Shown here piece after piece: positions 24,820 to 62,173 of a stretch of 64,000 nucleotides of DNA. Below the pieces are notes generated by a model. The model saw only the letters and a list, made by a program, of their open reading frames with translations, made no database searches and had not been told where the DNA came from. The translations under genes and the position numbers were made by a program. The first letter of the stretch is position 1; every line of letters starts with the position of its first letter. The stretch comes from Siderastrea siderea (lineage: Eukaryota > Cnidaria > Anthozoa > Scleractinia > Rhizangiidae): contig OZ034966.1 of the NCBI GenBank assembly GCA_964030785.1, positions 1,062,501 through 1,126,500 on the forward strand. Reading direction: 5' to 3'.

Positions 24820-25050
24820 AGGGCGGCATGGTTGACTAATGGTTAGTGCGCTGGACTCTGAAATTGAGCAGTCCGGGTTCAAACCATGGCCAGGGTAACT
24901 GGGGTAATTGTGTTGTGTTCTTAGACAAGACACTTTACTCTCATAGTGCCTCTCTCCACCCAGGTGTGTAAATGGGTACTGGCAAGTTTACTGCTGTGGG
25001 GTAACCCTGCGATAGACTCCCATCCAGGGAGAGGGGGGGAGAGAATACTC
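24820..25050 (+). mobile_element. tRNA-derived SINE
   Basis: Begins with a tRNA-like head: box A region near tggttgactaatgg and box B ggttcaaacc. It is followed by the body gacaagacactttactctca, tctccacccaggtgtgtaaa and the tail ccctgcgatagac. This arrangement is common in cnidarian SINEs. The anticodon arm is degenerate, so it is not a functional tRNA gene. Confidence 0.7.
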
Positions 25051-37104: not shown

Positions 37105-37993
37105 TGAGTCGTTCACAATCAAAGGGCTTCAGATTATATCGCAATAAGCATAAATGACATCTCGCCTAAGGGGGTTTTCAGTAACAATACAACAGGATAA
37201 GTTTGGTCGAGGGACAGTGCCAAGTGTTTTGATAACATCATTAGGTGTGTGCACTGATCTAGACTATTTTTGTGCCAAAAAGCATAGAAAAGAGATAATA
37301 ATAACTGTTTGTTTTGTGGGATGAGACAGAGGCTCAGGCTTTACCAAATTGATCCTTAATGCATGAATTGTATCTTTAATGAGAGATCATTATAATTCGA
37401 GAGGCATTTACTCTTTTCATCCCAAACCAATTTTGTTGTGTACCATGGTTATAACTAGGTTGGGCCCTTGTTGCTTATCAAACGAACTCGGAGTCATTGA
37501 GCAGTATTTTCTTGGTTCTGTTTGTGGTTCAAGGCACTAAAATGTGTGCTTGAACACTTAGTTAGTTATAAGGGAGTGAATTAGGGGAGTGTCGTAGTGA
37601 TGACTGGCAATCTTTTTGTTAAGTTGTTTGAAGAAATAGCAGCTTAATGATTTGTAACCATTACGGTTTTTAAGAAACTGCAAAACAAACAAAATTCATA
37701 AAATATGTTATACTCACACACGAACACACGAACACAGCTTTATACAGCTAACAGTTCGTGTCTGGGGTAAACATCTGAAAATGACAGAGGCTGCAATACT
37801 GTAAACGGGGATCCTCTGCAGCAAGAAGTGCCTCAGTACTTGTGGGAGTTTGTTGTAGAATATAAAGCATGATTCAGGTCTGGCTTATTTGGTACTTAGC
37901 CAAACACTTGTCTATTAACAATGAGGTGTTGCATAAACTTGATACAGTATCGGAACTATAACTTTCGCCTTCTTTCAGTTATGATTATAAGCA

Positions 37994-38726
37994 GGGTGGT
38001 TAAGGGGTTATCCGTGACACGTGATTTGAGCAAAAAATAGCGCGTGACACGTGAAAGCAGCTCAAATATTGCCGTGATCCGTGAATTTGCGATCCAGCCT
38101 GACGCGTGATCTTCTCACTTTAAAGACCGTGATTCGTGATTCCGTCCAAAAATATTCGTGAAGCCCGAAACTAAGTTAGAAAATACCGAAATTACTGAGC
38201 AAGAATCTGAATACGACTCTGCACCAGACAAAGGTGACCAACTAGTAGATGACAACCTGGGAGAGAAGCATAAACGAATGAGGTTGCAGTAAACTTTCTT
38301 TCAAAAACATTTTGCACTCGATCAGAGAGGGCAATCACCTTGTCAAATAGAGCATTGTCGTCCTACCAATGAAGCTAAGAACAGTTCAGTTACTAAAGAG
38401 TCTACGACAATTAAGCCTAGGAGAGATACCTCGACCCCTTTGCTTACTCGACACTTAAAAAAGACTGATTTTGTGTGAAGAACACGTTCATGAGTATGAG
38501 AACATTTTTCCGCACTCGAAGCTCCCCTAAAAGACTGTGTACTGAAAACTAAACGCAAAGCAAACTAATGAATCAATTAGGGACACTCTCTTTGCAATGG
38601 CGTATGTTAAAAACGTGATTCGTGAAATGTTTCAGGAAACGTACGTGATTCGTGATTTGAACGAAAATAGGCTCGTGATTTGTGATCGGTACCCCCCCCC
38701 CCCCCCTTTACCATCGGGATCCCCCA
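37994..38726. repeat. Copy-2-specific block with CGTGATTCGTGA repeats
   Basis: Replaces 1787-2411 of copy 1. Variants of cgtgattcgtga recur at both ends (38000-38155 and 38610-38680), and a C-run (about 38692-38706) closes it. Between them a plus-strand frame reads acidic residues (EITEQESEYDSAPDKGD) before a stop at about 38290. It is probably a repeat element with a degenerate ORF. Confidence 0.5.
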
Positions 38727-39906
38727 TGCTATTGAAGAAGACACTCGTTTCGTAACTTTTAAGCTAAGAACATTTGTCTCAATATCTGTTATTAACAGTA
38801 GCCCATGCCCTGTAACTATATATATTTTTGTATAAGACCATCGGAATCATATCTGTCCTCCTTCTGTACACACAAGTTACTCAGTTATATTTCCTCCCGA
38901 CCGAAAGGTGTATAAACGGGTACTACAGCACTACATCACGGATCGCTTTAATATTCAAGCGGATTGCAGCATACTAACTCAGGGAAGGGGCGGTATTTTG
39001 CTGTGAGCTGCTTATCCTAGGCGCTACGACTCTACCCTGATGACGAGGTAACCTTCTCAAAGAAAGAGCATGACCCTATGCCTCTGTTTATGACATCTTT
39101 ATAACCAGACCTTTCCAGCACAATTTGCTCTCTTGCTAGACTGAGACGGAAAACTAACCATTTTCACTCTTATGGTGTTCTTTTGTAAATTTTCTCTGCT
39201 TGGACGGGGAAGCGATTTAAGTCTTTTAATTACACATCAGAAACTACACTTCAGTGACTATACAGCAGGAAATAAAGTTAGTATTCTCAACATCCTTTTC
39301 TTTGTTATGCTGGACACTTCTCTTGTAGTAATAGCCTTTTAAAAGACCACAAGGCAGCAAATGTTGGTGTAAAATAACGTGAATTTTAACGGGTTTTTTT
39401 CCTATCTGACCTTTTTTTAAGAATTTTGTTTTAACCAGTACGGTGTTTTTATTCTTGCGACAAGTGTTTTCAGGAATTTAACACCACTTAATTGCCAAAA
39501 TTGCCACAGAGAATTGTGATGCGATAACCCAACACTTTTGCATTGACTAGAGTCACATAGAACTACTGTAACCTGACAATAAGCAGAGTAGCCCAGTTTG
39601 AACTGACCTGGTTCATCAGGCTTCCAGTTCACTATCAAAACTTGATTGTTAAGTGTCTTTTCACTACGAAATATCGATGGTGAAGTTTTACAGTTAGGCT
39701 AGACACTGTCTAGATTAGTCCGTGTTGACGGTATCCACATCAGGTAAAATGACAAAACATCAAACTCAGATAAGAAACAAATGACTCAAATTTGATCTGA
39801 CCACCGGTATTCCTACCCCCTGTGCAGATGTAATTTCAATTTGTTTGAGTATCCCGACAACTTATCTAGTTTGCTTATAACCATGTTCTATCAAACAAAA
39901 CGAAGT

Positions 39907-40100
39907 GTAGAATTATATGTAGATCATCGCAGTGAAGGTGCTTCAACCTAAGCGGTTGAAAAGAAGAAACCTGAAAAAATTCAGGCTTGAACGGGAATCG
40001 AACCCATGACCTCTGCGATACTGGTACAGCGCTCTAACCAACTGAGCTATCAAGCCAACTGGGATTCCCGTTCAAGCCTGAATTTCATATATTAATGTTT
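39907..40100 (-). mobile_element. 194-bp tRNA-derived SINE-like insertion with 10-bp TSD
   Basis: Flanked by aaaacgaagt at 39897-39906 and 40101-40110; copy 1 has the single empty copy near 6857. The tRNA-like body is 39984-40056 on the minus strand, with intact A box (tagctcagttgg) and B box (ggttcgattcc). The 3' acceptor side is repeated inverted beyond the tRNA: 39979-40001 is a perfect 23-bp inverted copy of 40062-40084. The whole thing can therefore fold back on itself. Confidence 0.85.
39984..40056 (-). tRNA. tRNA-like sequence (Thr-AGT-like) inside a SINE
   Basis: 73 bases that fold as a cloverleaf. The acceptor stem pairs fully (GGCTTGA with TCAAGCC), the D stem is GCTC/GAGC and the T stem ATGGG/CCCGT. 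The anticodon loop CCAGTAT would give AGT. Position 33 is C instead of the near-invariant U, and the last anticodon-stem pair is A-C. With the flanking target duplication this marks a retroposed tRNA copy rather than a working gene. Confidence 0.55.
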
Positions 40101-42072
40101 AAAACGAAGTATCTCAACCGAATGACTTTTTATTTTGATATCTCCGGATGATTAGTTTCACAAATTTAAACAATTAAGACAAACCTTAAACAATGATCCC
40201 TTATTAAAATAAACAAGTTCGCGCTGTTGGTATCCCGATACCAAGTTTGACGGATAGTTAGATGGACGGTTTTAAACAAGGAATAAAGATCATCTAGTGC
40301 ATCAATCACTTCCAGAAATACCCTTTCATCCCCCCCCCCCCCCCCATCCTTGGCCGACAGTGTCCTTCAGCCAACTCTCGGAATATCATGTTTTGGAAAC
40401 ACAGACGGCAAATGCGTTGGATAGGGACAACGATATGTTCAACTATCGAACGCTGTGACAACAACAACAACAACAAGACGCCAGATTCGTCATCTCAAGA
40501 CTTTATCCACATAGGGGAGTCTACTTTCCAGACTGTAGAAAACCCTTTGTTCTGTGCCCAATCTGTTATCCTATTATGCCTCATTACTGAAAGAAAACCA
40601 CAGTTCCAGTTGGGCAAAGACCACGACGCCGGAGTAGAATCACAAGGCCGGACCCCCGAGAAGTTTGACGTGAGAAGTGTCCTACTTATGTCAAAGGGAG
40701 ATGGGCACTGCTAAAATTGACTCGTCAGTACACCGCCGTTACGCCTTTTAACAGTGTTATCACCACCACCGCAGCATTTTGGCAAATTTACCTTGACGCA
40801 TTTCTACTTATTTTATACTGAAGAGGAAAAATAGGCCACCCATTTTGCCACTTGTGTCATCATTTTTGACACGACCCACAACAACTTTTAGAAATCACTG
40901 ATCTAGTCATATTCTGTGGAATGCTGAAATCTCCGAACTCTCGAGAATTGACGGCAAGGAACCGTCATCTAATTTTAATCATATTAAAGGTAAGTTAACT
41001 AAAATAATCTACGAGACTGCGCTCAAAGCGACGACTTTTTAATGAGCTTCAATAGAAATTTTCTTTGGGCCGATTCTGTGATGCTTACAAAATTTTATAT
41101 GAATATCGTATATATGGTAGTATGTTTTAATCAATAGCTTATTATTATATTATGGCAGCTATAAATTTCAAATCACTTACGATTCACCGGTTCTTAACTG
41201 TCCACTTCTTTTCAACTTATTTTATGTATGTATATATATATATTTTTGAAAATTATTTTAAGTATTTTTCTTTTGTTTCGATGTGGGGTGTTGTTACAGT
41301 TGATGTGGTTTTATGTGCCCTTGATAACCGCGCCAGGGGTTTCGTCGCTACACACGCTGCAATGATTCCGAAGGCCTGTTGGTATCATTTGCAGAGTTTT
41401 GTTTTCTTTCTTTTCTCTCATTTCTTAATAACTAAAAATGCTTCAAGTGCTAGTCCATTTTGCCACTACTATAAGAATCCTCTGTCAGTACATCTGGAAG
41501 ACTGCAAACAGGAGAGGATTTAAGACTTTGAGGTCAGGGTCTTTTGAAACTGATAAAAAATGTATGCTATCGCTTTTAAACTTCGATACGAATTTTGCAG
41601 AAAAATAGCCATGAAATAGATGACCAAGTTAAAGAAATATTTACCCCCCATTCCGGGCTTCTTTGCGGCTATCTGTTTGTTTTTGATTTGGGCAATGTGG
41701 AGAAGAATAACTCAACTTGGGCAATCCGGAAGGATTTAGTCAGAAGGATAGAGTTAAGTTACTTAAGAACTACTTTAATAGCTTTCACAAAATAATGTGC
41801 CGAGTCTAAGCGCAACTAGCTTTTTTCTTCTTTGAAGTGGCCTCGGAGTTTGAGCTTAAATAAGAGAATCTCCTACTCTGTCTCAAGATTTATTTTAATT
41901 TCGAGAAGATGTACCATACATTGGAACCCCTATAACCTTTTGGGTGGAAGCCCCCTCTTACCAATCCACTTCCCCTGCCTAACCGCACCCATGGGCTTAA
42001 ATCTATTTTACCGTTGGTAGTCAACTGGATCAGTATGTGACTGTTGACACACAGACCACTTACGTACACCAC

Positions 42073-42329
42073 TTTTAGCATTTAAGCCAGCCAAGAAATA
42101 CAACTAAACACATAATTCTCATTTTAGCCCGACAGCTTACAATTCCTGGGGTCGCCTACCCTCGTCATTAAGTCTGAAAAATAAACCCCAATCACTTCGT
42201 GTGATAAAAAAATATACTGGGCTTCTAATAAGTCACTGATGTTACGTTAAAGGTAATTTCGTGACCTTGGACTTCCGATTGCTTTCATTAAATTGAAAAA
42301 AGCCTAATATATTGATTCTTGGACGCCAC
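42073..42329. mobile_element. 257-bp insertion specific to duplication copy 2
   Basis: Absent from copy 1 (empty junction near 8704, cacgg). The insert is bounded by ccac on both sides (42069-42072 and 42326-42329), a possible 4-bp target duplication. No inverted ends or coding capacity were recognised. Confidence 0.55.
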
Positions 42330-42860
42330 AGTATCCGTTTTGAAAGCTTATCGTCCAAATTGAGAATTTCATACTGCTGGAATGGACTACAGGCACAGGC
42401 TACGGTACTCGTAGAGTAGACCCATTTGGCGTGTCACTTATATTTGGCTGACATTTCTCCGCCTACGGGACAAAAAGGTTGTTATTTTTAAAACGTTACA
42501 AGTTTAATCAACCAGAAGATAAACTTTTTTTTTTATTATAAGCTCGGATAGGATGTCTTGCACGCGGCAACCCGCGCAATGAAAGCAAGGACCTCCCATC
42601 GGGTGTTGATATCCTTGCTGTGCACGTTCACTTTATTTGTGAATGGGTTTCCTGTTACATGTTCTCTGGAAGATAAAGTTGCTTCATGCCGTTTGCTCTC
42701 TCTTTTTTCTCGCAGCCCTCTATACTTCAACCGTTATCAAAAGAGCTGTGTTGACGTGGCTTGTGAAAGACGTAAAGGGCAGTTATTTCCCTGAATAAAG
42801 AACCACAGTACCTACGAGAATTGTCTAGTGGCAAAGACAGTTTTCCTCGTGGAATAAACG

Positions 42861-45800
42861 ATGACCCTACCGAGATACTTTTTAATATTTTTCTTTGGGT
42901 TAATCGTGTTGAGAGCCGCCGAAGTGAGCTCTTTCGGAAGGAAACCGACTAAAGGTGAGTTGTTTAGTTGTCTTTGCAGATATGCCTTTTGATTTTATTT
43001 CTTAGAGTGTACGTTTGTTGGATTGGCTACTGCGCACAATATAAAATCGTCATTGATGTAAGTTGCGGCATTTCGTAACCGAAGAAATAATTTTGATTCC
43101 TTGTTGACCTTGAAGTGAGAGTCATAAATTTCACGCATCGTGTTATTCAGGCAACCTTGCGTATTTCATCTTCAATTTGAAAAATTGAATACAGTATTGG
43201 GTCCGATAAATTCGAAATCATCAGTTTTGAGAGGTTATCTCTGGCCATATGGAGTTGACGTGTTTACAGATACGAAAGCAATCAGGACATCTCTTAGAAG
43301 ATTAATGCTGCTGGATGCGATGACGATTTTGTATCTGAAAGCACGAGTTGTGCAAAGTTATGGCTACAGCAAGAAAGCCACGGATCTTATCTAGTATTTG
43401 TTGTTTACCTAATCTTCAATAGCGTTTGATAGATATCAAAACATATCTCCCCCAGACTTGAGCATCTTTATTAAAGACAGTTCTATTTATGGCGCGTACA
43501 GTAAAAACTTTCTGTCGCCTTCTGGAAGAGGGTTTATAAAGCTCTTTGGTGAGTGCCATCTAATCGTAACATGGAAAACACCACAAGTTGTATGGATGGT
43601 TTATTGCGCCATCGAAGGGTAACATGGAAGACTTCATTTGCAATGCTGCCTCTACAAATGGTTTGATATGAACCTTTGATGAGTATCGAGATAGCAATAG
43701 AGTGTATGAAGGCTTGTTGAAAGGCATTCCCCAAATCTCTTCGCTCTTTTATTCTTCAAGCCAAAGATCGAATAAATAAATCGTTTTCAGCGATCACATT
43801 TCGCGGGTCCTATTTCTCCAGAGATTCTCTGTGTTTTATCGTAGAATCTCAAGGTTGAAGCCTGTAAATTGTCAAAGGTTATGTTACGCTACATCCAGTC
43901 ATTCGATAGACTAGAAAAAGGGTTGTTTTGTATTTGCTTTAAAAAGATACGGCGTAGGTAGGGAGAGAGGTACAACGATTAAGACGACTTGGTTTTTGAA
44001 AACGTGCCTTACTTTCCATCTCATCAAATTCATCAAATTAAAGTTTTCGGTTTATTATTCCGTCAACGAGCGGCCGTGACTGGAATATGTGACGAGGCTC
44101 CCTTGGTAGTTCGAGTTCGTAGGGGGGAGGGGAGGGCATCTGAATGTCAGGCGTATCTCACTTCATACCCTTCGAGAAAAATTCGCCAAACGAAGAATTC
44201 CTGTCTTTGTAGTCTGCTTTCAAAATCGTATCGACAAAGGTAGACGAAGGTTTTAACCCAAGCCCTGCTTTTACGCCCAGCTGGAAATTCTGCTGGTAAC
44301 AATGCTTTCTCTTAAAATACCCTCGCCAAATCCTATCGGCTCAGGGCTGGCGCCTTCGTCCTAGCATTTTGCAGTATGGTTTTTATTTTCCTTCTGGGAT
44401 TTTCTGCGCTTAGCAAAAAATATATATATATTGCTTGCAGACAGCGCAGCTAGATTTCTTTGCATCTTCTGCAAGGTCACGTGTATTCAATTACTACCAA
44501 GTGTAAAATGAACATGCAAAGCTGTCCATCACACATTTGCTATATTCTGTTAAAACTGAGAAAACATGCACCATTTGTTAGCATTTTGTAACGTATTTAG
44601 ACCACACAAAGAAGTGTCTTTTAGTAGCGACAGTGTCCCATTCGTGTGTGCTTATAATCTCATGCTGTGCCGCGCGAGCGGCGGCTTTTGTTCATTGACC
44701 AGCTGTAAACAGGAAACTGAGAAATGTTAATTTATTTTACCGTCTGCCTCAGTGTGCGTTTCCGGAAAAACCTGGGAATAACCTAAGGGCTGAAGCAATA
44801 ATAACGTTGGTAGAAAAAGGAGGACGACACGTTTTAAACATCATTTAAAACCGCGAAATTGAATTATTATCAAAATTGATGGCGTATTCATCCATCCTAT
44901 ATCGAAAAGTATCTTTCAACGGGTTATTAGTATCCATCTGAGTTGCGGTTTGTGAAAATCATTGATGTCACGTTTGTCACAGGTTCTGTGCTCACCGCCA
45001 AAATATTGATCTTGGTAAAAGCAGTGAACATAAAACTCAGCTACATAGCTCTTGTGTGGTAGAATAAATAGAGGGCTGGCGTCTTTGGACACTTTCATTA
45101 ACGGCGAAAAAGGTCATCTCAGAGTACGCTGCAGTCATCGATCTCTGACCCTGCGACTACTTTCCTAGTTTGCAGAACTTTTTATATTTAATGTTGGCAC
45201 CAACAACAAAACTTTGTAAAATCGGTCTCCAAAAACAAATAAAGATATCCTGATTTGTTGCTGAGCAATGACCCTATTAAAGTGTTTAATCCTTTTTCTT
45301 TTCTGTTAATAAAAGAAGAATCAATATCTCAAATACTCATGAAATACTCGTAAGCTTGAACTTCTCGTTTGTAATAAAACCAAAATAGGAGTTCATTCAC
45401 CTCAGTAATTTAACCCTGATAACTCGAACGTTCGTTACATAAGTTTATGTTTTCCACGACGGCTTCATTTATTGAGACTCTACCGTATTTCTAAACTGTT
45501 TATTTATTTGTTGGATGTCATAATGGCGCAACCTTTCTTATCAGGAAATACTAACAGTAGAAGCCATGGTGCTAGGAAGATTACGAAACAGCTTGACTCT
45601 TTACTCTACTGGATTCAATCACCAATCGTCTAGCGTAAAAACACGAAAGCAAATATCCGCGTTCGGCGCCTAATTTTCGCGCCTTTTGTTTTACCGTACT
45701 ACAGTTGCAACCCAGGTTCAAGAGTGACGTTTTGCGCTTTTATACTTTGGAGTGATAAAGTGAAAAAGAGCACAACAATTATCATGAGTATAGGTTTATA

Positions 45801-48800
45801 GAATGGGATAGTGCAAGACATAAGTGCCCCCTTCACTAGCTGGAACATTATCAAGGGAAAAAGGCGTAGGCTGTCCTCTTTTTTACTATTGTGTCTTCAG
45901 ACTAGGGTCTGAAGACAGACTTAGTGTGGCCGCGAACGGAAGAACTGTAGATCTGAGTGCTTTCTGTTCAAAGTGGTTTCGCACGCAGCTTCTATTCTAT
46001 ATTGTTATATCGAACTAATGTGAACTTTGCTGTTCTAATTTTAAATTTGGCTAAAAAGGCCAATCGTAATATAACGCCGCGGGAAAAGGCGGATATTCAA
46101 CCCTATAATGATACATCGATCGGATAAATGAAAAGGAAATATGATTGGGAAAATGGAAGGTCACCGGTACAACGACTTAAAAATTACGAACATTTTTGGT
46201 TGAACGTTTGAAAAAATGATAGCATGCGTCAGGCCAAATGAGTTATTTTAACTTAAGTCTCCTTTGTGAGTTGAAAACTGACAGCTTTGTTACAAGGTGT
46301 TGGGGTAAAATCTTGTGTCCAATCCACTGGCGATGAGCCCTTTGGCTTTTGGCCATAAGCCATAAGGCTCAGTAAGGCCAGAGTTTAGCTCCGGTTTCTG
46401 TAGCATGGAGCGACTTGGAACATCACTGCATCACTACTCCCCCTGGATGGGATGCTAGTCCACCGCAGGGTTACCTCCCAGGTTTTCTGTTAGGATTCCC
46501 TAACAGTTATCGTGTACCCATTTATACACCTGGTTAGAGAAAGACCATATGGAGTAAAGTTTCTTGTCTGAGGAAACAACACGATACAATGCAGAGACCA
46601 AGCCTCGAACAACCGACCCTTTGATGTTGCAATCGTCGATCGAAAGCCTTACGCATTGACCACTACATTGCCGCACCTCCACAAAGTGCTAAGGATCAGT
46701 ACTAAATGTCGATGACTATTCTATCAATTTGTTTTTGTAGTTCTGTCGGGAAAATGTGGGGACCCAGGAGTTCCAAAGAACGGCTTCAGAGTAGGAGAGG
46801 ACTTCAGCTACCAGGCCACGGTGGAATATTTCTGTAATCCCGGATTTAAACTCGTGGAAGGTACTCGATTTAGAAGTTGTCAGAAAAACGAAAAATGGAC
46901 TGGAACTTTGCCAACCTGCCAAGGTTAGTTAAGCTATGGTGAAAATGAAAGAATGTGTGTGGGTCAAGACAACTTTATATATGGGTTTGTTCACACTACT
47001 TGAATTATACCTTCGTTTCCCTTTTTTTTTTTCAAAAGCCTCTGTTCCTCTGCTATTACTAGGTACGCCGATCATCGACCGTCCTTTTTTTTTCTCTCGC
47101 AATGCAAATTTCAGTCTTTGAACAAAGCTATATTTCAGGCAGTCACTCTACTGTCCTTTCCTCCATCCTAGGCAGTTCCATGTTGGTCCGGTCCCATTTC
47201 CCGCCACTTTTTTGCATGCTCAGTGACGTCTCAATGGTGTTATTTAACGTGGTGTTCCCAAAAACGCATCAAGGAAAGGTTTTGTTCACAAACACTAATT
47301 CCAACAACGAATTTCTTTGTGTCAAAAGCATGTTTTGCCTTCAATTTCACTTCACTGATTTGCTCACTTTTTTTCTGACATTCGACGCCATCTTACGGTT
47401 TGTAGGGAGAACGCAGTAATTGCTTAAGCTACATTATAATTATGTTATATACGAGTGATAACGTCTAGCTTGCAAACTTTCGTTTAACATCTCATTATAA
47501 CCCCTCCTCTAGGTTCTTCGTGTCTGTTGTTGTTGTTGTTGCTGTTGTTGTTGTTGTTTTTAGAATTGTTTATATTTAGAAAAGGAGTATAGCCTTGGTA
47601 ACAGTTTCCTTAAAGAACGATTTAACACCAAGATGGCGGCCATTAGTACCGGTTCCTTAGCCTGCGAGCAAGCTCTCTCGGGGGTGGGGGCGCGATCCCC
47701 CACCCCCGAGAGAGCTTGTTCGCAAGCTACCGGTTCCTAGAAAGCATTAGCGTCTCGCTAATCGACGATTTAAATTTATCCGTCGGCATGATTACACTAA
47801 TCAAGGGATCAATGTGGGGTAGATTTAATCCACTAGCAAAGTCGAATAACCTAGACTATCCTTATTTAAAAATTAATAAAACAAGAAAATCAGCTTCCGT
47901 AGTAAGCATTTATAAAAAGGTCTTTTTTGAGACTGCATTTAAAAATGTCAACTGATGCTGAATCTTTGACAGACTGGGGTAGAGCATTCCACAGCGACAC
48001 CGCAGCAACAGCAAAAGTACGCCCACCATAAGATTTAAGATTATAGGTAGGATTTCAAAGCAAGTTTTTTGCAGTTGAACGACGTAATCTCCGAATCAAC
48101 TGAAAAGCCACGCATTTCTAAGATATCTTTCGTCGCAAGCTATACAGCGGGAACAATGGAGTTTTTACACAACACTTTGCGGGTTTGGGTCTTCTACACA
48201 AGAATCCTTAAATGAAATAAGACATTTATAGCAATTTTGTAGAAGTAGGCGGAAACGTTAAACTGAAATGTTATAAACATAAGGCAAAAAGTTTGACGAT
48301 TGAAAGAGAAGGTAATGTCGTTCCCAAACAATGCAGAGCTTCTTCGTTGATTAAACAAAAAAAAACGAAATCTTAAGTGAGTTCTGCAAAACGGTTGGAC
48401 AAGAACTATCAGAGACAATTACCGGCACTCATCACTTCTTGAATGCCAAGAGGAAAATAAGTCGCCGGTTCTGAACAGCTTTAGCTTAATTTCACTTTGC
48501 TTGGCATCAACGTCACTTTGAACTAAATAGTGATTTCCACTTTGGCCGAAAGTCAAGTTTTGTTGAAAGAATTAAAACCTTTCTTTTCAAATGTATAGAG
48601 ATTTGCTTTAAAAACTGTGCCGCGGTGAATGTTGACGATACCCTGAGACTGCAACAGCTTGGTGAAACGACTATCGGAGTCGACTCTTTCCTAACTCTTC
48701 TACTCGCTAATTACTTGTCAGTTTATCCGGTTGAATGTGAGTTTCACCGAGGGATTGTTCATCGCAGAATAACGTTACTCTCCTTTCAGGAATGCTTTTT

Positions 48801-51800
48801 TTCTTATTCTAAGGAAAAGGAATTTAATTATCGATGTAATGTTAATTGAAGGATAGTTAAACCGGCTTTCCGGCAACCGGAGCCTAATGCGTAACAAGAT
48901 TGCATGAATCTCTGGTCTAGCTGGTGTTAAAGGGATTCATGTAATTCCTCGTTTTTTTCACATGCAGATATCAACGAATGCTTTGAATACAAGGATTATG
49001 CGATTCCTTACACCACTAACGATGTACGGGTAGAGCACGGTCACCTATGTCACGTGAAGGCCACGTGCTTCAACACCATTGGGTCGTTCCACTGCAAGTG
49101 CAACCCGGCTTACTATGGCGACGGAAAATACTGTGTGTCTAAGAAATATCTAACGACCGGTGCTCTGTTGCGAAGTAAGTGATTAGAGCAAACAAGGAAT
49201 AAATATTTCCAGACTATTACAGCATCACTGTAAGGTTTCGTATGGCTCTGATCATTTTGTACTGAACGAGTCCATTGCCCCACAGAGGGTCCAAGGAAAT
49301 CTTTTTTTTTAATTCTAATCTGCTTCCCGCAGTCATGCCGGTTTAGCCAGAATTCACATATCAGTCCTGTTTTGGCTCTTTTTGTATCCTCTTCTCCTAC
49401 CCTGTCTTCGCAAGAGGATGCTGACCCAGACTATTCATTACTTGTCCCTTGAAGGTTATATGTTGTAATGGGTAAAACAAGGAATCTGTTACGTTTTATT
49501 TTTAGAAAAACCCAAGGTTTCAGCGTACACTTGCGGCACCTTAGGAGAAATATACAAGAACTCGACTCGTATCAGACGCATTGTGGGTGGGATATCATCT
49601 TCTCATGGAGCTTGGCCTTGGCAAGTCGCTATATCCTACACCAGCACAAGTAAGTTATATTTTACATACGTTTTGCATGGACAAAACAAGAAGGAAAGAA
49701 ATTCGGTTGGAATTTCAAAGTTTTATTAAGCCATTAAATCGGGTGATGCGTTTCTTTTGGGCTTATAGAGTACACTTTATACCTTCTGTTAACCATTTTG
49801 CACTTAAAAGTGCCACTGTCTGTGAATCTTTGCGACCAAAATCGCATTGCCGATCGTGAAAGGGCTAGCACCCCAACACCCCTTCAAAAAAGCTTTTCTT
49901 TAACTAAATACGTCTGTGGTCACTTTACACACTAATACATGATATATACACTGAGAGGAGTCCAAGCTGAAACTTTCAAGGCTTAATTTGTCTAAATACC
50001 TCCATGATTAGAAATAGTCAGAGGGGAATAATCGGTAATTAGGTGTATAAGTCGATGATATAAGCTACAAAACAACATTGAGCATAAATCTCAGTTTTTG
50101 TGTATTTATCTCTTACTTGTGGGTAATTAAAAATGCATATTGCTTATAACGGGCTAAAGATGTCATCCCTTTACGGATAAGCCAGCAGTTTTCGCAGCTT
50201 GTGGCTGGATGAATAAGACCTTCACAGCGCTTACCAAGTCTTAAGTGCAGCATGCCATAATCACCTCTGAAATGCGCATTTAAGTAAGTGAGTAAATAAA
50301 ACCTTTAGTTAGACACGATGGTAATTAAATCTTGTACGGTCTTTACTCATGTTTTCAAGAACTTTGACACCTAGACAAGTTTATAAACAAAGACAAGTAC
50401 ATAGTCTACTCATTTTAAACATTGTTCCCCGAAAGGTGGTTAATCATGTCAAGGAAATATCGCGTGTTCGAACGCTACAAAGCACAAACATGACGACTAG
50501 ATTTATTGCAATGAGATGCTCTTAACTCTTCCTATTATTAATCTATTTTCCTTAGTTGGCGTTGCTCGTTTTCAATGCTCTCCAAAATAGATTTTTTCTT
50601 TATCCTTGTTTCAAAGGTATCACCAATTCCTAGCGACCGCTGGAGAGAGTAGCCTTCAAAGCATAATTATCAAAGATATCTTTAGTTAACCCTAAAGGAA
50701 TAGTCTCCAATTTCTATTTATTACTTTGCGTTAGGTTCATGGCGTTTCATGCGTGAGGTTGTGTTATATGGCTTGGCAAACGATGTGAAGAATTCAGCTT
50801 AAGAATAACTGACTTATCATTAAAGCTTATCGGAAGCGATTACCGCCACAGCCTACATCTTAACAACTAAAACGTAACAGTGAAAATAGAAATATTAAAG
50901 AATTTAATGCCTTGTTAGCTAGAGCTTGTCCCGCCAAAATGATTGATTGTATTAATGTGCTAAAAACAAACTTTCTTGTACATTATTGCAAACAATTCAT
51001 GTTTGTCGTTTGTATAATCCCCTCGATCTTCCCAGTAAAACAAAACCGCTTATGTTCCTATAAATAGCAGCCACTTTGCGTTGCTCAGTCGCGTTTAAAA
51101 CTGAAAGCTCTAGTTTATATTCCTCGAACATTGAGTGTCTTAATGGCGTCAACAGGTTCAGCAAATTGTAGTGTGAGACTATAATTCCTTGAAGTCTGAT
51201 TGGGACCAGTATACTCGTGATGTTGATATGAGGACTTAAAGCAATGTCAAAAGCAAAGTGAAACAATGTGTATTAGACACGAGGCGGACGTTTCCACTCG
51301 TGGAAAGGATATCATGTTGTTACTCATGTCTTTACCCCGTCGGTCAAATCTGCCCCTTACAAGATTATGGGTGTGTCAAAATTCACACTAAATTGATTAT
51401 TAAAAAACACTAATGAAAAAGAAAAAAAAGAACATTTCCAAATTCCAATTCGATCTGGATTTCAGTCTCCCCGATTAGTAGTGCACTAGTAGTAGTGCTG
51501 CTAGAAGACTGTGACTCTAATAAAGTTATTTATTTATTTATTCATTTATTTATTTATTTGCTTGTGATCAATATTTGCTTTTAGGAAGAGGATACTATCT
51601 TTTCAACGGAGCGCTCATCAAGCCTGGGTGGGTCCTGACAGTGGCAAACGTTCTTCAAGTCAAAAAAGGCGTAAAGCCAATAAAACCCAGCAAGCTACAA
51701 GTAGTACTTGGTAGGTAAATGCCAGTAAATACAAATTATGTCTCGGAACCTAACATCTTGCGATTGATTGAATCCTTAGTTTGTCAAATCTCCGATTAAT

Positions 51801-53628
51801 GACAAAGGGGTACGTTTTTTATGAAACTGTGGTACTGCGTCGTTGGGGGAGTGAGTCACAAAAATATGGATTTATCAACTGAGTTGATAAGGTAAATTGG
51901 CCACCGTAAGGAAATCGAAAGCTGAAGTTTCGAGCGCTAGCCCTTCGTCAGAGCGAGCGTGCTAACTCTCGAAACGTCAGTGTTAAATTTCCTTACGGTG
52001 GCTATAAATTTGCCTTGTCAACTGAGTTGATAAATCCAAATTCTAACTCTACGATTACTTTGACCAAGAGACACGGTCAGCCTCCCCAACTACTGACGAA
52101 TGGGGTTAGCAACTTTGTTTCATGCAATTTTGTAGGTACTAGAACTGATCTTAAAATCACACAGTTATTTCCTAAAAGGAGCCTACGTCATTCTATTATT
52201 TACATTAGTTACTAGTTGGGGATGGGCGCTGTGTCGTTAGCTAAAGTATTTGTAGATTTTTGTCTGTTTTGTTTTTTTCTAAGGAACACTTCTAGAACAA
52301 ACACAGTGAACGTTTGCCAGGTCCCGGTGCTTATTGGCCCAAAACGTAAAACTATATCAACTTGATTTTTGCACTCGACTTAGAAGGGCTTTAATTTAAC
52401 TTGTGCTAATTTGCTGCTGTCACAGGGGAATTCAACCGTGATAAACTGGACGGCACCGAAACACCCGTCCGTGTGAAAAGGATAGTTCGACATCCTGGAT
52501 ATGATGGAAGTGGGTTCGCTCATAACATCGCTCTTCTGGAGTTAGAAAAACCTGCCAAGCTTAATGATAATATACGAATGGTGAGTATGCCAGGTTTTTT
52601 GAAGTTAGTCAGTCGGTTTGTCAGTCAGTCAGTCAGTTAGTCAGTTAGTCAGTCAGTCGGTCAGTCAGTTAGTTAATGAGTATGCTACTTAGTTTTATTT
52701 GGTTTTGTTTCTTGGTTAGTAAAGCGACTGATGGAGGACTAATACGTGGGAGCTTTTTAGGGCTTTTTGCGGGACGACGTTTATATCTTCATGATCTATG
52801 GCCGAAGAGAGGTTGAATAATTGCCGACAGGGCCGCACGCAAACCCTCAAAGTCTCCTTTCCCGTGGTCGTATACAGATCTAAAAGTTTTTTTAGAAGCG
52901 TCTACTAGCTTGAATATCACTGTTGGTAACACTTCGTGATACTTTTGCATGAGGTATGGTACGACGTCGTCGTACGGTCGTGACCATCAAAATCATCTCG
53001 ATTGGATATATGCATTTCATGAGCACGCAGCTCCGCTTAAAGTCCAGATATATATATTTAAAATAATAATAATAAATTTCCAATCATTTTTACAAATAAC
53101 TTTTGCATAAACTCTATGATGAATTCTTTTGTTTCCTTTTGATGGTATTCTGAGCCACAAATGTTGACGGTATACAGTAACGTTTTGGCTGATATTTGTG
53201 TTGTTTAGGTGTGCATACCAAAACGCAGAAGGGATAAGATTTTGGAAAAACCGCTGCAGTATGGAACGGTGGCAGGATGGGGATCAACAAAAGCAATCAG
53301 ACTGGGTGAACCTACAGGACCATTGTCTGCCGAGTTGAGGCAGGTCACTGTCCCTATAATCCCGGATAAAGAATGCAAAGATGCCACCATCTACACCTAT
53401 AGGAAAGAAGACACGCTTTGTGCAGGTTTTAAAAGGAAGCCTAAAGACCCCTGTTTTGGAGACATCGGCAGCCCGCTTGTCATGCAGAACCCTCGCTCTG
53501 GGCGATGGACTGTGATTGGATTGTTTGGATGGAGCGAGGGCTGCGGAAAACCAAAAAAGTACGCATACTACACAAGAGTGTCCAAGTATAGAAAATGGAT
53601 TAATTCAGTTGTTAAAGGCCGACAGTGA
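42861..53628 (+). CDS. Secreted sushi-EGF serine-protease homologue (catalytically dead)
   Basis: Seven exons with matching phases: 42861-42954, 46741-46923, 48968-49174, 49506-49649, 51585-51710, 52426-52580 and 53209-53628. They total 1329 bases, 442 residues. Residues 1 to about 22 form a signal peptide ([17 protein letters not shown]). Next come one sushi module (about 32-92) and a calcium-binding EGF (DINEC, six Cys, [12 protein letters not shown] hydroxylation pattern). An activation linker with Cys170 leads to RIRR/IVGG (cut after Arg185), then the protease-like domain. The triad is Asn231, Asn285 and Ile389 (TVAN, NIALLEL, GDIGS). Cys42 and Cys58 are both lost; Asp189, Asp194 and Tyr225 remain. 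By analogy with HGF or haptoglobin it may signal or bind rather than cleave; that role is inference. Poly(A) signals follow the stop. Confidence 0.9.
46440..46681 (-). mobile_element. tRNA-derived SINE, minus strand, in intron 1
   Basis: Read on the minus strand from 46681 it starts with a degenerate tRNA-like head (ggtgcggcaatgtagtggtc). It continues with the same body as the SINE at 24820 (acaagaaactttact, aaccaggtgtataaatgggt) and ends near 46440. It lies just upstream of the sushi exon of the pseudoprotease gene. Confidence 0.65.
47529..47566. repeat. (GTT)n microsatellite
   Basis: Run of gtt units with one gct interruption, in an intron of the pseudoprotease gene. Confidence 0.8.
47658..47729. 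mobile_element. 72-bp hairpin MITE with 9-bp TSD
   Basis: Nearly perfect hairpin: tagc(c)tgcgagcaagctct through a G-run pairs with its complement across a 6-base loop (cgcgat). Flanked by ccggttcct at 47649-47657 and 47730-47738. It lies between the sushi and EGF exons of the pseudoprotease gene. Confidence 0.85.
47893..48095 (-). pseudogene. C-terminal LINE reverse transcriptase fragment
   Basis: The minus-strand translation gives [18 protein letters not shown] followed by [12 protein letters not shown] and [10 protein letters not shown]. This is the usual end of CR1/Rex-type non-LTR reverse transcriptases (the .LWN.LP motif). A stop occurs upstream (LL*NPTYN). It is a dead insertion in an intron of the pseudoprotease gene. 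Confidence 0.7.
51528..51560. repeat. (TTTA)n next to a splice acceptor
   Basis: Tetranucleotide run ending about 25 bases before the acceptor of the exon at 51585. Confidence 0.7.
51868..52036. mobile_element. 169-bp MITE with palindromic ends
   Basis: The ends ggatttatcaactgagttga and its near-perfect reverse complement at 52012-52036 frame inverted inner blocks (ccaccgtaaggaaat against atttccttacggtgg). The core reads gcgctagcccttcgtcagag, a sequence I recognise from abundant cnidarian MITEs. It lies in an intron of the pseudoprotease gene. Confidence 0.75.
52600..52676. repeat. (GTCA)n-type tandem repeat after an exon
   Basis: Imperfect gtcagtca / gttagtca run starting about 20 bases after the donor at 52581. 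Confidence 0.75.
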
Positions 53629-55380: not shown

Positions 55381-57500
55381 TTTTTTTTTTAACACTTTTT
55401 TTTATTGAATGCTATTACATACACTTACACTTACTGTTACATACTCTTCCTTACTTACAGTTCCACACATTTACTTTACTTACACATAAGTACTATATTT
55501 ACACACTCATTTACATATACTTACACTGACGCTACTATTACAAGGAAAAAATTAAATACTTCCTTACACTTAGTTACAGGAAAATAAATAAATAAATAAA
55601 AAATAATAGAGATAATCACCTATTTACTAAATAAACATTATGTTTCATTCTTACAGCATACGTTATTTTTATTTAATTAATTTAGTTGTGGAAAGTGTTA
55701 ACGAAAGAAGATGTTTAATTTGTTTCTATGTTTTTTTTTCATATTATTTGTTTTGAGAGCGGTAAGAACAAACTAGATGGCTGCTAATATAAGAAAAAAA
55801 AGATAGTAGAAATTTCGCTGTTCTCTCCACATCCAGGCGCAAAGGGAGACGACTAAAATAGAAAATAAAAAATCGTCCAAACTAAAGAGAAGCTAGTGTT
55901 CTTGTTCAGCGAGGAAAGCTCCTCATTTTTTGTTAAATTTTGTTAAAAGCCCATGTTTAATTGAAAAGTGTCTTTCTACTTCCAAGCAGGTGAAGAAGTT
56001 CTTGACAAAAAGTTCACGTGAGGGGCAGTGGTGCATTGATTTTGCCCAAAAATGTGATATCTGCTTATTAAAAGGGCGTGGTGGAAGAGGAGATCGGAAG
56101 CGTCTTCCACAAATCCCAAACATGACTGGAGGGTGAAACATTTTGTCGAAAAACAGGAGAAGGTACCCAACCAGTCTTTAACTTCGTTCCAGAAGATTTT
56201 GACTCGAGGACATTCCCAAAAGAGATGTAGGAGGGTTTCCGTTGAACTTTCACAGAAAGAACACACTTCACTTGATATCAGCCCAATTTTGAAAAGATAT
56301 CTGTTTGTGGAAAGTCGTCGATGGAGTAGTTTAAACTGGAAAATTTGCAGTTTGGATTCGCGAGTACATAGAAAAGGCAGACTGTACGACTTACTCCAGT
56401 CAATCATTTCAGCACCATGTACTTGGAAATCAGATTCCCATTTACTCTCACTTCTTTGCGGCAGGGATGCATGTCGTTCAATGAGTATTGTGTAGGCTAA
56501 TTTGCAAAAATCCTTTGACCCCAGTAGTGATTCAGTATTTAACATTTGAGAACAGTCAGAGTTGTGCTTCACGCCCAAAACTGCTGTCACAACGCTGCGG
56601 TATTGAAGAAAGTTGGCTTTCAGAGAATATTTCTCTCTGAAAGATTCGAAAGTCAAAACCTTTGACGAAGTCTCGTCAAGGAGATTGCTTACTTTTTTAA
56701 TTCCTGCCAAATAACAATTTTTGTAAAAAAGCGGCTTACCCTCTATACGTACAAGAGAATTGTACCATATTGGCATGTGTGAGAGAGATGGTGGGCTGCG
56801 GCTGAAATTGAGACGGCACCAAACCTCAATAAGTTCCTTAGTAAAGGGATCCTCAATTTCTAGAGAGGCAACATCCTTTGGATCAAGGTTACCGGAGAAA
56901 AGTGCTGTTGTGACGCAGTTTCCTAAGAAAAACTCAAGAAACAATTTCCATTTGCCTTTGTTGTTAGGGTCTAGATATCTTTGAGCCCACTTTGTCTTTA
57001 AGGCGTCATTAAAACTTTTAATGTCTAGCATTTTCAGTCCCCCTTTGGAATAATCATTAATCATTAGTGTTCTTTTGATTTTGTCTCCTTTACCATCCCA
57101 TAAAAATTTATACTGTTTATTTCCTTAACATATTCACTTGGCGTGGGAAGTGGAGATAAAATGTAAACTAATTGCGAAGCAAGCAGACTCTTGATAACTG
57201 TTATTTTCCCGAGAAGTGTAAGCCTTCTGAATTGCCAATTTTCTATTATTTTATTTATTTTTTATTTCTTCTCTTGGAGGTTTAAAGTTTCTGACTCTTC
57301 CTTGATTGTGGAAAACCAGACGCCTAGAGCAAAGACTTTGTGGAAAGACCACAGTATATTTTTATTTGTTTCAGTCTATTGTTCGTGTTTGAAGGCGAAA
57401 TGAGCCAATCCAAAGTGCTTCAGTTTTTTCATAATTAACATTTAGTCCTGAGAGCTCTGAAAATGAGTCCAACAATTTTAAGGAGGTATTCACGGAATTG
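55381..57500 (-). pseudogene. L1/Tx1-like LINE, ORF2 3' half, broken
   Basis: The open part at 55976-57064 (362 codons) begins INDYSKGGLKMLD and ends in a zinc-knuckle region, CSFCESSTETLLHLFWECP, typical of L1/Tx1-clade reverse transcriptases. Upstream, 57371-57500 encodes SGLNVNYEKTEALW of the RT domain. The two parts are joined by sequence with frameshifts and stops (57064-57371) that still encodes recognisable pieces (LLGKITVIKSLLASQLVYIL). A T-run at 55381-55391 may be the poly(A) tail on this strand. The 5' part is lost in or beyond the assembly gap. Confidence 0.75.
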
Positions 57501-58471: not shown

Positions 58472-61400
58472 TCATAGGTAGCCGTAGGGGTAAGTCTTGA
58501 AGGTGTTTGGATTGACCACTCTCTTGTCGTACACCAATTTGTAAAACGTGGACTCGTGAAAGGTGTGGAGCTGATAGGTTTTAGGATTCCGCACGATCTG
58601 GTAGGTTTTGTGGACTGCGGTTTGGCGCGGTTTCTGGAGTGGCTTCTGGATTTCATCCAATACGTTCTGGCGCATGACGCTGTAATTCAATTGGGCTTTT
58701 CCTTCGCTGTTGAGGCGAAAACCTCTCACTTTGCATTCGATCTTTCCCTTCTTGGTTTTATACCCATAATTCTTGGGACCGCCTGACACAAATTCGACAA
58801 TGTAGTCGTCATCATCCAATTCACTCGTAAAATCGCCGAGGTAATTCCCCAAGACCGGACTGGGTTGGCCAGGTTCCTCTAAGTAGATGACTGAGTCGGT
58901 GTCGTAGTAGAGGACACGTTCTCCCAACTGTTCCAATGCCTCGTACAGTTTGAGACGGGCCCAACAGGTGGTAAACGCGGCCACGAAGATGTTCAGGTTG
59001 GGTGAGACGAGGATGTCTTCCTTTTGGTACTGGTAGAGTACCTCCACCATTTGGTCATTCATAATGGATACATGCCTGACATCCAGGGTATCGGTGTCCA
59101 AAAACCGATGAAAGGCTTGGGGGTCATCAAATTCTTGGACTCGGGTCTTGTTGAGCCGTTGTCCAAACTTGCCCCACATGGAATTGAGCATCATTTTTGC
59201 TAGGGTACGTAACCCAGGATTCTTTTGGATCTTGTTGTACTCCAGCTGGATGCCCTCCTTTTGGTGGTATAATTCCACGTACTGGTTCTTCTTTTCCTCA
59301 GTGGTACACCATGCGGGCCACCCACTGGCTTCTTGCTTGATTTTCAACCAAGTGTTGACGTAGTCTCGGAACAGTCCTTGACAGGTTTCTTGAAAATGCC
59401 AGACTTCGTAGATGTACTGGACTTGATATCCCAAGTCCACCGCTTTGTCTAATTCCGGGCTGCACCATGTCCCGGTCAGGACGCGTTGCTCGTCGGTGTG
59501 GTTGCATTCGGCCGTCCTCTCCCAGGGGCGTTTGGGCATTTCGTCTTCCACACAACTGGCACAGAGTGGAAAGAGCAGTTTGCTGTCATGGCGGTAAGGC
59601 AGGACGGGATGGTAGAGGTCACGGGGAGGCAGGACTTTGCACTGAATCAGCCCGAAGTACTGGTGGATGTCCGTGTGACCCGGTTGTGAAATGAAGGTAG
59701 GATGTCCTTTAGGGTAGACAGAGGTTTTGTTGACCCAAGGGTACAAGGAGGTGACATCAATGTAATGGATCTTTTGGTTGGGGGTCACTTGATGGTACAG
59801 TTTCACGGCATTGGTCCCACCTCCACAGAAAGCGTCACGAGGGTTGAGGGGGTTGTTCAACTCCAGGTTGTTGACGAAGGATCGGATCTCTGGGTTGGTT
59901 TCTTTGAGACGTTTCCATTCGCATTCCCATATTTGGACCACAGTGTACCCTTGTTCTCTTAACTGTTGGACCTTGTGTTGCGAGATTTCGTAGATATCTT
60001 GCATGGTTCGATCATAGTGACGCACATGTTTTTCGTGGCGGTTTGGATGACAGGTTGGGCAGCCATGGGTGAAACAACCTTGAAATTCGTACACGGTCTG
60101 GGTGTCGTGGCAGTAACCATCCGCACGGAAGTTGGTGCCGGGGATGCGATACTCGCCGGCATTTCTGGCATGTTGAATGTCCTGAGACTGTTCTTGGATA
60201 CACCAAGTGAGCCATTCGATGGACACCTTGGCGTGATTGATGCGATTCTTCCAACCAAGGGTGGGTTCACTGGCAATACTGTTAGGGATCATGCGGTTCA
60301 TACGTAAATCCATGTTGCAGGCAGAAGCAATGGTGATGTGATCAAAGGGGTTGAAACCCGCTTGAGCTTCAAACAACCGTTTGAAAGTCAGACATCCTTG
60401 TTTCAAGAGACGCACATCTGATTCACAGTACCCAACCAATTCTTTCTGGAAGTCAAATACCACCTCCTTCTCGCGTTGTTCTTGATGCCACTTTTCCAAG
60501 GCTTGCTTGCCTTCAGGAGACATGGTTTCGGGCATGTAGTAATCGAGGGCCGGGACGATGCCCACGTACGTTTGGTGTTCAGGGATATTGAACTTGTGTG
60601 GGAAGTAGCCTTTTTTCAATTCCGTTAATCCAAAGGTTTTGGGAAAGGCGGACAGGGGCATCTGGAAAAAGCTGAGAGAATCGATGAATCGGATACGATC
60701 GTGTTTGACTTCCAAGAGTTTACACCCGTTCCGGAGCTGTTCGACGATCCGGTTGTCACTATGGTATTGATGAACCACAAAGTAACCATCGTACCCTTGG
60801 AAATTATGAGCGAGTACATTGACTTGTCGGGTGTCGTTCAACGTGAGTGTATCCAGCCATTCGAGAAAATCTCGGGTACAATATTCGCCTGGGAAACGAA
60901 TAGGTTGATCGTCGTCTTCGGTTTCGGCCACGATGAGATTAGCAATGTGTTGTTCGTGGGGTTGCGTGGCTTCAATATCAAAAAACACGTGCAAGGGTGG
61001 CAGGTCGTCCCCATCTTCCTCCTCCTCCTCCGGTGCGGTCGCCGCCGCTCCTCGTTTCGCACGAGGGCCTCCTTGACGTTTCCTCTTTCTCTTCTTTTCT
61101 TGAGGCTTTGTGGGTCTTTGAATAAAACAAAGATGGGTTTCACCGTGCACGTACTCATGGCAAGAAGGGCACTCCACGTAGTAGCACTGATGCCTTGAAA
61201 TCTTTTGTAATCCAATGTCCTGTTTAAGACAGTTAGGACAGCGACGGCGATGAAAGCACACGGAGGACTGTAGGTTGGTCACGGGTTTGCCAGTATGGTC
61301 CTTGCCGAGATGTGCTTGGAAGCAAGTCTCTCCGAAAAAGTCCCGATGACATTGTTGGCAACGTTGTGTGGCTTTCTGGCCTCGAGGGTAAGCTGCCTGG

Positions 61401-62173
61401 AAATCAGGGCACTCTTTTTGGCGACAGGCCCCGCATTGCTTGTTCTTGTTGCAGCGATGCTGTCCTTGGGTGTTGTAGGGTTTCCAACAGTGGGCACATA
61501 CATAACTGGACCCGAAAAATCCTGGTAAACGGGTAATGACATCGTAATGGTCATGGTCGTGGAGCAAAATCAATTGTTTGTCTTGGGTGTCTCCAAAGGT
61601 GGTGATGTGAAAGGATCGATGGACGTCCACCAGGATGATCTGATAATGGGCCAGGGACGGGGCCGCACTGAAGGCCGTCAAAGCATCGTAGCTGCAAGGG
61701 CCCAAGGGCACCTTGGCTTCGTGATGGAGCAAGAGAGCCAATTCTTTTTGGAGGGGTCTTCCTTGGCGAATGGCTTTCTCTTTTGGGTGCTGGTCCAGGC
61801 GAGCTTTGGCAGTGACGAGGGCTCTAGCACAACAGAGCTCATCCCTGTTTTGGATGCGGATGACACTCCGTTTGTTGCTCGTTAAGATTTCCATCGTGGG
61901 GTGACCTGGTTTGCCACGACGGGGTTTGCCGGTTCCCTGAGGGGCATGATGGACTTGAGTAATGGACAATTGGAACGAGTCATCCATTTCAAATTGTTCA
62001 TTGCTGTTGAGGGCTTGCGCCAATCGATTGAAGAGGGCCTCCATACGTTCACCTCCTTGACGCCATTCTCGTGCTTGTAAACCCCAGCCGTGAAAGTTGT
62101 TGTGGAGCCTGTTGGAGCCAATGGTGAAGTAGAGGCGATCTTGATCGTTGAGGTCAGGCGTGGTGGCTAACAC
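58472..62173 (-). CDS. polB: Protein-primed family B DNA polymerase (main open frame)
   Basis: 1233 codons, longer than a bare polymerase. Residues 225-350 are a Cys/His-rich region (CAHC, CGAC, CQQC, CPNC, CPSC) followed by a basic then acidic linker. The 3'-5' exonuclease motifs are FFDIEA (397-402), NFQGYDGYF (457-465) and YCESDV (582-587). The polymerase motifs are A DVTSLYP (806-812), B KMMLNSMWGKFG (993-1004), C YYDTDS (1089-1094) and KxY KNY (1134-1136). An inserted segment (678-712) with FRADGY and YEFQGCFTHGCP resembles VSR-type nucleases. All catalytic motifs look intact. The role would be replication of the element's linear DNA from a protein primer. The frame continues upstream across a TAA; see the next entry. 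Confidence 0.85.
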   Translation of the reverse strand: MLATTPDLNDQDRLYFTIGSNRLHNNFHGWGLQAREWRQGGERMEALFNRLAQALNSNEQFEMDDSFQLSITQVHHAPQGTGKPRRGKPGHPTMEILTSNKRSVIRIQNRDELCCARALVTAKARLDQHPKEKAIRQGRPLQKELALLLHHEAKVPLGPCSYDALTAFSAAPSLAHYQIILVDVHRSFHITTFGDTQDKQLILLHDHDHYDVITRLPGFFGSSYVCAHCWKPYNTQGQHRCNKNKQCGACRQKECPDFQAAYPRGQKATQRCQQCHRDFFGETCFQAHLGKDHTGKPVTNLQSSVCFHRRRCPNCLKQDIGLQKISRHQCYYVECPSCHEYVHGETHLCFIQRPTKPQEKKRKRKRQGGPRAKRGAAATAPEEEEEDGDDLPPLHVFFDIEATQPHEQHIANLIVAETEDDDQPIRFPGEYCTRDFLEWLDTLTLNDTRQVNVLAHNFQGYDGYFVVHQYHSDNRIVEQLRNGCKLLEVKHDRIRFIDSLSFFQMPLSAFPKTFGLTELKKGYFPHKFNIPEHQTYVGIVPALDYYMPETMSPEGKQALEKWHQEQREKEVVFDFQKELVGYCESDVRLLKQGCLTFKRLFEAQAGFNPFDHITIASACNMDLRMNRMIPNSIASEPTLGWKNRINHAKVSIEWLTWCIQEQSQDIQHARNAGEYRIPGTNFRADGYCHDTQTVYEFQGCFTHGCPTCHPNRHEKHVRHYDRTMQDIYEISQHKVQQLREQGYTVVQIWECEWKRLKETNPEIRSFVNNLELNNPLNPRDAFCGGGTNAVKLYHQVTPNQKIHYIDVTSLYPWVNKTSVYPKGHPTFISQPGHTDIHQYFGLIQCKVLPPRDLYHPVLPYRHDSKLLFPLCASCVEDEMPKRPWERTAECNHTDEQRVLTGTWCSPELDKAVDLGYQVQYIYEVWHFQETCQGLFRDYVNTWLKIKQEASGWPAWCTTEEKKNQYVELYHQKEGIQLEYNKIQKNPGLRTLAKMMLNSMWGKFGQRLNKTRVQEFDDPQAFHRFLDTDTLDVRHVSIMNDQMVEVLYQYQKEDILVSPNLNIFVAAFTTCWARLKLYEALEQLGERVLYYDTDSVIYLEEPGQPSPVLGNYLGDFTSELDDDDYIVEFVSGGPKNYGYKTKKGKIECKVRGFRLNSEGKAQLNYSVMRQNVLDEIQKPLQKPRQTAVHKTYQIVRNPKTYQLHTFHESTFYKLVYDKRVVNPNTFKTYPYGYL

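Follow-up and report, generated by a model that had tools for sequence, protein, structure and literature searches.

A cnidarian family of trypsin-fold proteins that have lost the catalytic residues and keep a furin-type cleavage motif

Gene structure and domain composition

A single 64-kb stretch of the genome of the coral Siderastrea siderea, hereafter the window, carries a seven-exon gene whose 442-residue product combines a sushi domain, an EGF domain and a trypsin fold, and in which the catalytic residues of S1 proteases are replaced. An earlier note on this DNA had described the product as an activatable but dead protease. All six introns begin with a GT donor and end with an AG acceptor, and the joined exons amount to 1329 nt, that is 442 codons and a stop, with phases of 1, 1, 1, 1, 1 and 0 after exons 1 to 6; the open frame of 442 residues that the note had deduced from the exon phases is thus recovered. 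Coordinates are collected in Table 1; residues are numbered on this protein and sites follow chymotrypsin numbering.

Pfam recognizes three domains in the protein, by matches too strong to be due to chance: Sushi (residues 37-91, E 5.6e-10), EGF_3 (residues 118-148, E 1.2e-9) and Trypsin (residues 187-434, E 6.1e-48). No VWA, CUB, kringle, PAN/N or clip domain was found by Pfam. A trypsin fold is predicted, as is a helix at residues 4-26, and the N-terminus encoded by exon 1 is likely to be a signal peptide. The EGF exon varies among relatives: exon 3 is absent in four of the 12 proteins of our first family alignment (P0007, P0008, P0010 and P0011), likely as a result of exon skipping or of differing gene models.

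A database protein, P0001 (442 aa, 11 member sequences, 1602-nt contig), equals the window translation at 440 of 442 residues. Because its two differences, at residues 140 and 239, miss all six splice junctions, it supports the exon joins independently, and since 1602 nt is too small for a 10.8-kb locus we take the contig to be a transcript. Residue 140, in the EGF domain of exon 3, is Ala in the window and Gly in P0001 (NPGYYGDG); the other relatives with an EGF exon in the first alignment also have Gly, and the Ala is possibly an allele or an assembly error.

The earlier note had considered that other exons might restore the catalytic triad. None was found in the window: a tblastn search of its whole length with the protein gave S1-like matches only in the gene's own exons and in a second S1 gene upstream, and four relatives used as queries revealed no further S1 exon in the six introns.

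Loss of the catalytic residues and of one disulfide

The window protein has N231, N285 and I389 at positions 57, 102 and 195, which agrees with the Asn, Asn and Ile first read there in place of His, Asp and Ser. The elements of zymogen cleavage that had been listed as kept are likewise in place: the residue equivalent to Ile16 is I187, directly after R183-I-R-R186; Asp194 is D388; and the linker Cys171 can be matched with Cys305 (position 122), with which it is expected to form a disulfide tying the two chains. The cysteines of the 168-182 and 191-220 bridges are retained.

Cys42 and Cys58, whose bridge lies next to the former active site, are both lost (F216 and V232). This is the only unusual bridge loss, because both cysteines are near-universal in the other S1 domains with a residue at the site (217/221 at position 42, 219/223 at position 58). 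The Cys136-Cys201 bridge is also absent, position 136 being G322; as position 201 is Cys in just 85 of 218 other S1 domains, we dropped this absence as an informative loss.

A family in hexacorals and at least one jellyfish

Three word-based protein searches, of which the best 120 of 594 matches, the best 120 of 640 matches and the third set were considered, yielded 19 family proteins (P0001-P0012, P0122 and P0141-P0146). P0122, a fragment from a gene model, contains exon 7 and has a first part unlike the family; it was left out of counts at positions 42, 57, 58 and 102 and included from 195 onward. Both P0122 and P0146 stop short of the cleavage site and were left out of the counts made there (n=17). 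Named members come from Acropora cervicornis (P0008), Nematostella vectensis (P0009), Actinia tenebrosa (P0010) and the scyphozoan Rhopilema esculentum (P0146). The only name given to the Nematostella protein is an automatic one, 'coagulation factor IX isoform X2', and the identifier of P0144 is presumably that of an Aurelia genome. The family is not confined to one coral but spans hexacorals and, at the least, one jellyfish of the Scyphozoa.

Among the relatives found, His57 is kept in 0/18 and Ser195 in 0/19, the opposite of intact-triad orthologues around a single degenerate copy, though a more distant member with an intact triad may lie beyond the reach of word-based searches. All 18 rows have N or S at position 57, and all 19 have one of I, V, L, H and G at position 195. 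Position 102 divides the family, with Asn in 11/11 hexacoral-side rows and Asp in 7/7 rows of the other clade. Cys42 and Cys58 are lost in all 18 rows, and the S1 pocket reads P190, S216 and A/S226 in 19/19. Other S1 domains covering all ten scored sites (n=197) have the full triad in 175 cases, P190 in 5, S216 in 6 and A/S226 in 22, and lack both Cys42 and Cys58 in 4. Position 197 is S or A throughout the family (19/19) and in 7 of these 197 others, including Nematostella factor B (S).

Could such a domain still cleave by other residues? P0143-P0146 have His at 195 together with a retained Asp102, which gives residual or unconventional catalysis some footing. We nonetheless hold it to be very improbable: residue 195 changes with the lineage, position 57 has Asn or Ser, and every row shows an altered S1 pocket at 190, 216 and 226. 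A profile alignment placed a His at position 57 of P0142, a reading that we rejected because MAFFT alignments, in which the residues on either side are conserved, have Ser at this site; in P0011 a His directly follows position 57.

Compared with P0006, which is almost identical to the Acropora protein, the window protein has the following identities: 9/36 in the first 36 residues, 40/55 (73%) in the sushi domain, 48/69 (70%) in the EGF exon, 86/110 (78%) in the first barrel and 120/132 (91%) in the second. Against Nematostella the two barrels give 72/115 (63%) and 92/132 (70%), and the EGF exon 33/68 (49%). Apart from the lost triad, little speaks for a decaying gene or a gene-model artefact. 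The seven-exon open frame, the transcript-like match, the 18 further family proteins, the second barrel shared with Nematostella and an invariant cleavage motif all contradict it; with conservation reaching as far as jellyfish we consider decay ruled out, in line with the note's view that this is not simple decay, and an artefact of any kind scarcely credible.

An invariant cleavage motif preceded by a sequon

The motif R-x-R-R|[IV][IV]GG occurs in 17/17 family rows that reach the site, with P4, P2 and P1 invariant and P3 varying among I, T, V, N and F. In other S1 proteins, represented by 126 sites from 113 of 174 other fetched proteins, R-x-[R/K]-R was found at 2/126 sites and R-x-x-R at 8/126. 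An N-x-S/T sequon lies 7-12 residues before the cut in 17/17 family rows, exactly 7 in 10 of the 11 hexacoral-side rows, and a sequon within 20 residues of the cut is present at 12/116 other sites.

How the cut would be made bears on the word 'activatable'. One possibility is a regulated pseudo-zymogen, secreted as a single chain and switched outside the cell by a cascade protease that cuts after Arg186, as in HGF and MSP, with the product acting on a receptor. The retained cleavage site, linker cysteines and Asp194 would suit such a switch, and a trypsin-like enzyme could also cut at R186. A trypsin-like enzyme requires P1 alone, yet the P4 and P2 arginines are invariant in 17/17, and nothing in the analysis points to a receptor. 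Precedents exist: activation of Met by HGF depends on such a cut (PMC5017023), and even convertase cleavage can be extracellular, as for MASP-3 (PMC9296861). Taken together, we judge this regulated switch unlikely.

R-x-K/R-R is the preferred sequence of furin; MASP-3, a complement protease, is activated by the convertase PCSK6 in blood, and C3, C4, C5 and factor I are also processed by convertases (PMC9296861). Given this preference and the conserved R-x-R-R, the family motif may reflect proprotein-convertase cleavage, possibly constitutive rather than a switch, so that 'activatable' describes a possibility rather than a finding. That part of the earlier note accordingly stands for a dead protease with its cut site kept, and not for an HGF-like regulated switch.

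Phylogenetic position

A maximum-likelihood tree of 62 rows unites the 18 family rows in one clade (100/99), which divides into groups of 11 (97/85) and 7 (100/99); without the long-branched neighbouring S1 gene the clade receives 100/100. Should the tree be correct, the losses of His57 and Ser195 would have come first, before the two groups separated, and that of Asp102 later, on the hexacoral side. With the neighbouring gene left out, the family joins the S1 domains of Nematostella factor B and of a MASP1-like protein from amphioxus at 89/86, and the branch that would tell which of the two is nearer has 55/0 support. Tree rows were search matches, among which haptoglobin and HGF do not occur. 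MASP-1/3 is the best multi-domain match to the window protein both by sequence and by Foldseek. The 50 structure matches listed are mostly thrombin and do not name haptoglobin or HGF, and are thus uninformative on either.

We read the factor B/MASP grouping loosely, as a lead and not a placement. It does raise the idea of a non-catalytic cofactor or decoy in a complement-like cascade, which might compete with, or dock, an active factor B- or MASP-like protease. The same window holds, at a distance of some 25 kb, an S1 gene whose triad is intact, and cofactor pseudoproteases such as protein Z exist (PMC13194640). Against this, the linkage comes from one window only, the tree does not settle the sister group and the partner is putative, and the idea strikes us as rather improbable in this specific form. 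It is compatible with the explanation preferred below, from which it differs by naming the partner.

Proposed explanation

We think it somewhat probable, going by the sequence evidence, that the gene encodes a secreted, catalytically inert two-chain S1A pseudoprotease that acts as a binding protein, and that it represents a family of hexacorals and scyphozoans. Of this, the analysis shows the gene structure, the loss of catalytic residues across the relatives found, the conserved cleavage motif and sequon, the single clade and the predicted trypsin fold. The chain would enter the secretory pathway and would probably be N-glycosylated just ahead of the cleavage site, and a furin-like proprotein convertase may then cut after R-x-R-R, within the cell or just outside. 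The sushi-EGF light chain would remain tied to the heavy chain through Cys171-Cys305, and the new N-terminus at Ile187 probably inserts beside Asp388, ordering the loops as in true S1 proteases and giving the domain a stable surface for binding. With its S1 pocket altered (P190, S216, A/S226), the domain has probably not kept a substrate trap and would bind through a different surface. The mature protein would serve as a ligand, scaffold or cofactor; extracellular recognition or a complement-like setting is the most likely context. From secretion, glycosylation and cleavage through the two-chain form and N-terminal insertion to the binding role and complement link, these are steps that we infer.

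Several results weigh against this explanation. The family rows are related, so that 17/17 does not count independent events, and the controls are search matches, not a random sample. Of 11 other S1 domains in which neither His57 nor Ser195 remains, all 11 keep Asp194, which thus does not discriminate, and 3 keep Arg-Ile-Val-Gly-Gly; taken alone, the retention of these two features here is weak evidence of activatability. The sushi domain of P0003 is as conserved as its second barrel (49/55 and 118/132, both 89%), and that of P0011 (34/55, 62%) exceeds both barrels (58% and 59%). Finally, a grouping with factor IX, factor VII and protein C rows is not rejected (p-AU 0.171).

A more far-reaching version, which we put forward only tentatively and as doubtful, is that activity had been lost by the time of the last ancestor shared by corals and jellyfish, that a convertase turns the protein into a glycosylated ligand or complement cofactor of two chains, and that it arose independently of haptoglobin, HGF and protein Z. 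If true, early animals would have used, for extracellular signalling or immunity, dead proteins of trypsin fold that bind and whose maturation cut is protected. An S1 pseudoprotease common to anthozoans and a scyphozoan, with a fixed convertase-type cut and sequon, would amount to an experiment, run by nature over a long time, on the purpose of a zymogen cut that no catalysis follows. Outside the bilaterians, the family offers a concrete candidate for a binding protein linked to complement or resembling a growth factor, and one that is testable in Nematostella.

Comparison with known systems

S1 pseudoproteases are already well known in vertebrates and arthropods. In haptoglobin of vertebrates a sushi domain precedes the dead S1 domain; here an EGF domain stands between the two in most forms (absent in 4/12), the substitutions are others and the family is cnidarian. 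According to PMC13194640, S1 pseudoproteases act as ligands, cofactors and scaffolds, and haptoglobin is a secreted scaffold that captures a partner. HGF and MSP likewise have a dead S1 domain behind a cut flanked by two chain-tying cysteines, corresponding here to R186|I187, Cys171 and Cys305, and only two-chain HGF activates its receptor (PMC5017023). They differ by a kringle front end, an extracellular activator and a known receptor, where the present family has a sushi-EGF front end and a furin-type consensus; by analogy, HGF suggests how a secreted two-chain binding protein could work.

MASP-3 is cut by a convertase, PCSK6 (PMC9296861), and in one Aiptasia factor B EGF and CCP domains make up part of the front end (PMC4840205); factor B and the MASPs differ in being active enzymes that carry VWA or CUB domains, whereas here the triad is lost and neither domain was found by Pfam. 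Arthropod serine protease homologues (SPHs) are also secreted S1 pseudoproteases, some of them in immune cascades, but typically carry clip domains, of which Pfam finds none here. In Nematostella, Babonis et al. 2019 (PMC6767649) report the full triad in 61 of 72 trypsin proteins, hence 11 without it, among which P0009 may be included; the accessible part of that paper does not describe a cross-cnidarian family with a fixed convertase site. The available part of PMC12549020 does not mention the family, and a search by title and by the start of abstracts, in which subscription journals are thinly covered and supplements fall outside the scope, found no cnidarian sushi-EGF pseudoprotease family.

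Features of the window

Table 1. Coordinates of the dead protease gene, its key sites and neighbouring features in the window
Feature	Position	Strand	Remarks
Dead protease gene	42861-53628	+	seven exons, 442 residues
Exon 1	42861-42954	+	start codon and hydrophobic N-terminus
Exon 2	46741-46923	+	sushi (CCP) domain, residues 37-91
Exon 3	48968-49174	+	EGF domain; symmetric phase 1-1
Exon 4	49506-49649	+	linker Cys171, glycosylation sequon, cleavage site, start of S1 domain
Exon 5	51585-51710	+	covers positions 42-58
Exon 6	52426-52580	+	covers position 102
Exon 7	53209-53628	+	second barrel with Cys305 (122), Asp388 (194), Ile389 (195); stop codon
Linker Cys171 codon (position 1)	49532-49534	+	expected partner Cys305 (122)
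Sequon N180-S-T	49559-49567	+	N-glycosylation; 7 residues ahead of cut
R183-I-R-R186	49568-49579	+	furin-type consensus right before Ile187
Asn231 codon AAC (position 57)	51647-51649	+
Asn285 codon AAC (position 102)	52524-52526	+
Ile389 codon ATC (position 195)	53464-53466	+
Second S1 protease gene	14430-17469	+	Pfam Trypsin, E 1.4e-31; intact triad
TAAHC of second S1 gene	15102-15158	+
DIALV and GDSGGA of second S1 gene	within 16870-17451	+
Region with sushi-like stretches	18710-28033	+	stretches at ~18710, 20546, 21466, 22073 and 22750
F5/8 type C match	26840-27277		E 4.7e-7
Direct repeat, first copy	1395-8882		collinear, 86-91% identity
Direct repeat, second copy	37585-42510		collinear, 86-91% identity
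Repeat of ~440 bases	30698-31139, 33101-33978, 34432-34868		~97% identity, opposite orientations
DNA polymerase B frame	58475-62173	-	1233 residues; E 1e-46
zf-RVT frame	55979-57124	-	reverse-transcriptase zinc-binding match, E 7.4e-9

In the 62-row tree the S1 part of the second protease gene, upstream of the dead one, sits on a long branch and groups with Nematostella factor B (83/48). Two of the sushi-like stretches downstream of it contain an in-frame stop; they are followed by the F5/8 type C match, with which they possibly make up one gene. The second copy of the collinear direct repeats ends about 350 bases ahead of the dead protease start codon, and the ~440-base repeat is probably a young mobile element. 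On the reverse strand, the DNA polymerase B frame presumably derives from a Polinton-type element, and the zf-RVT frame lies beside a run of N near 57.5 kb.

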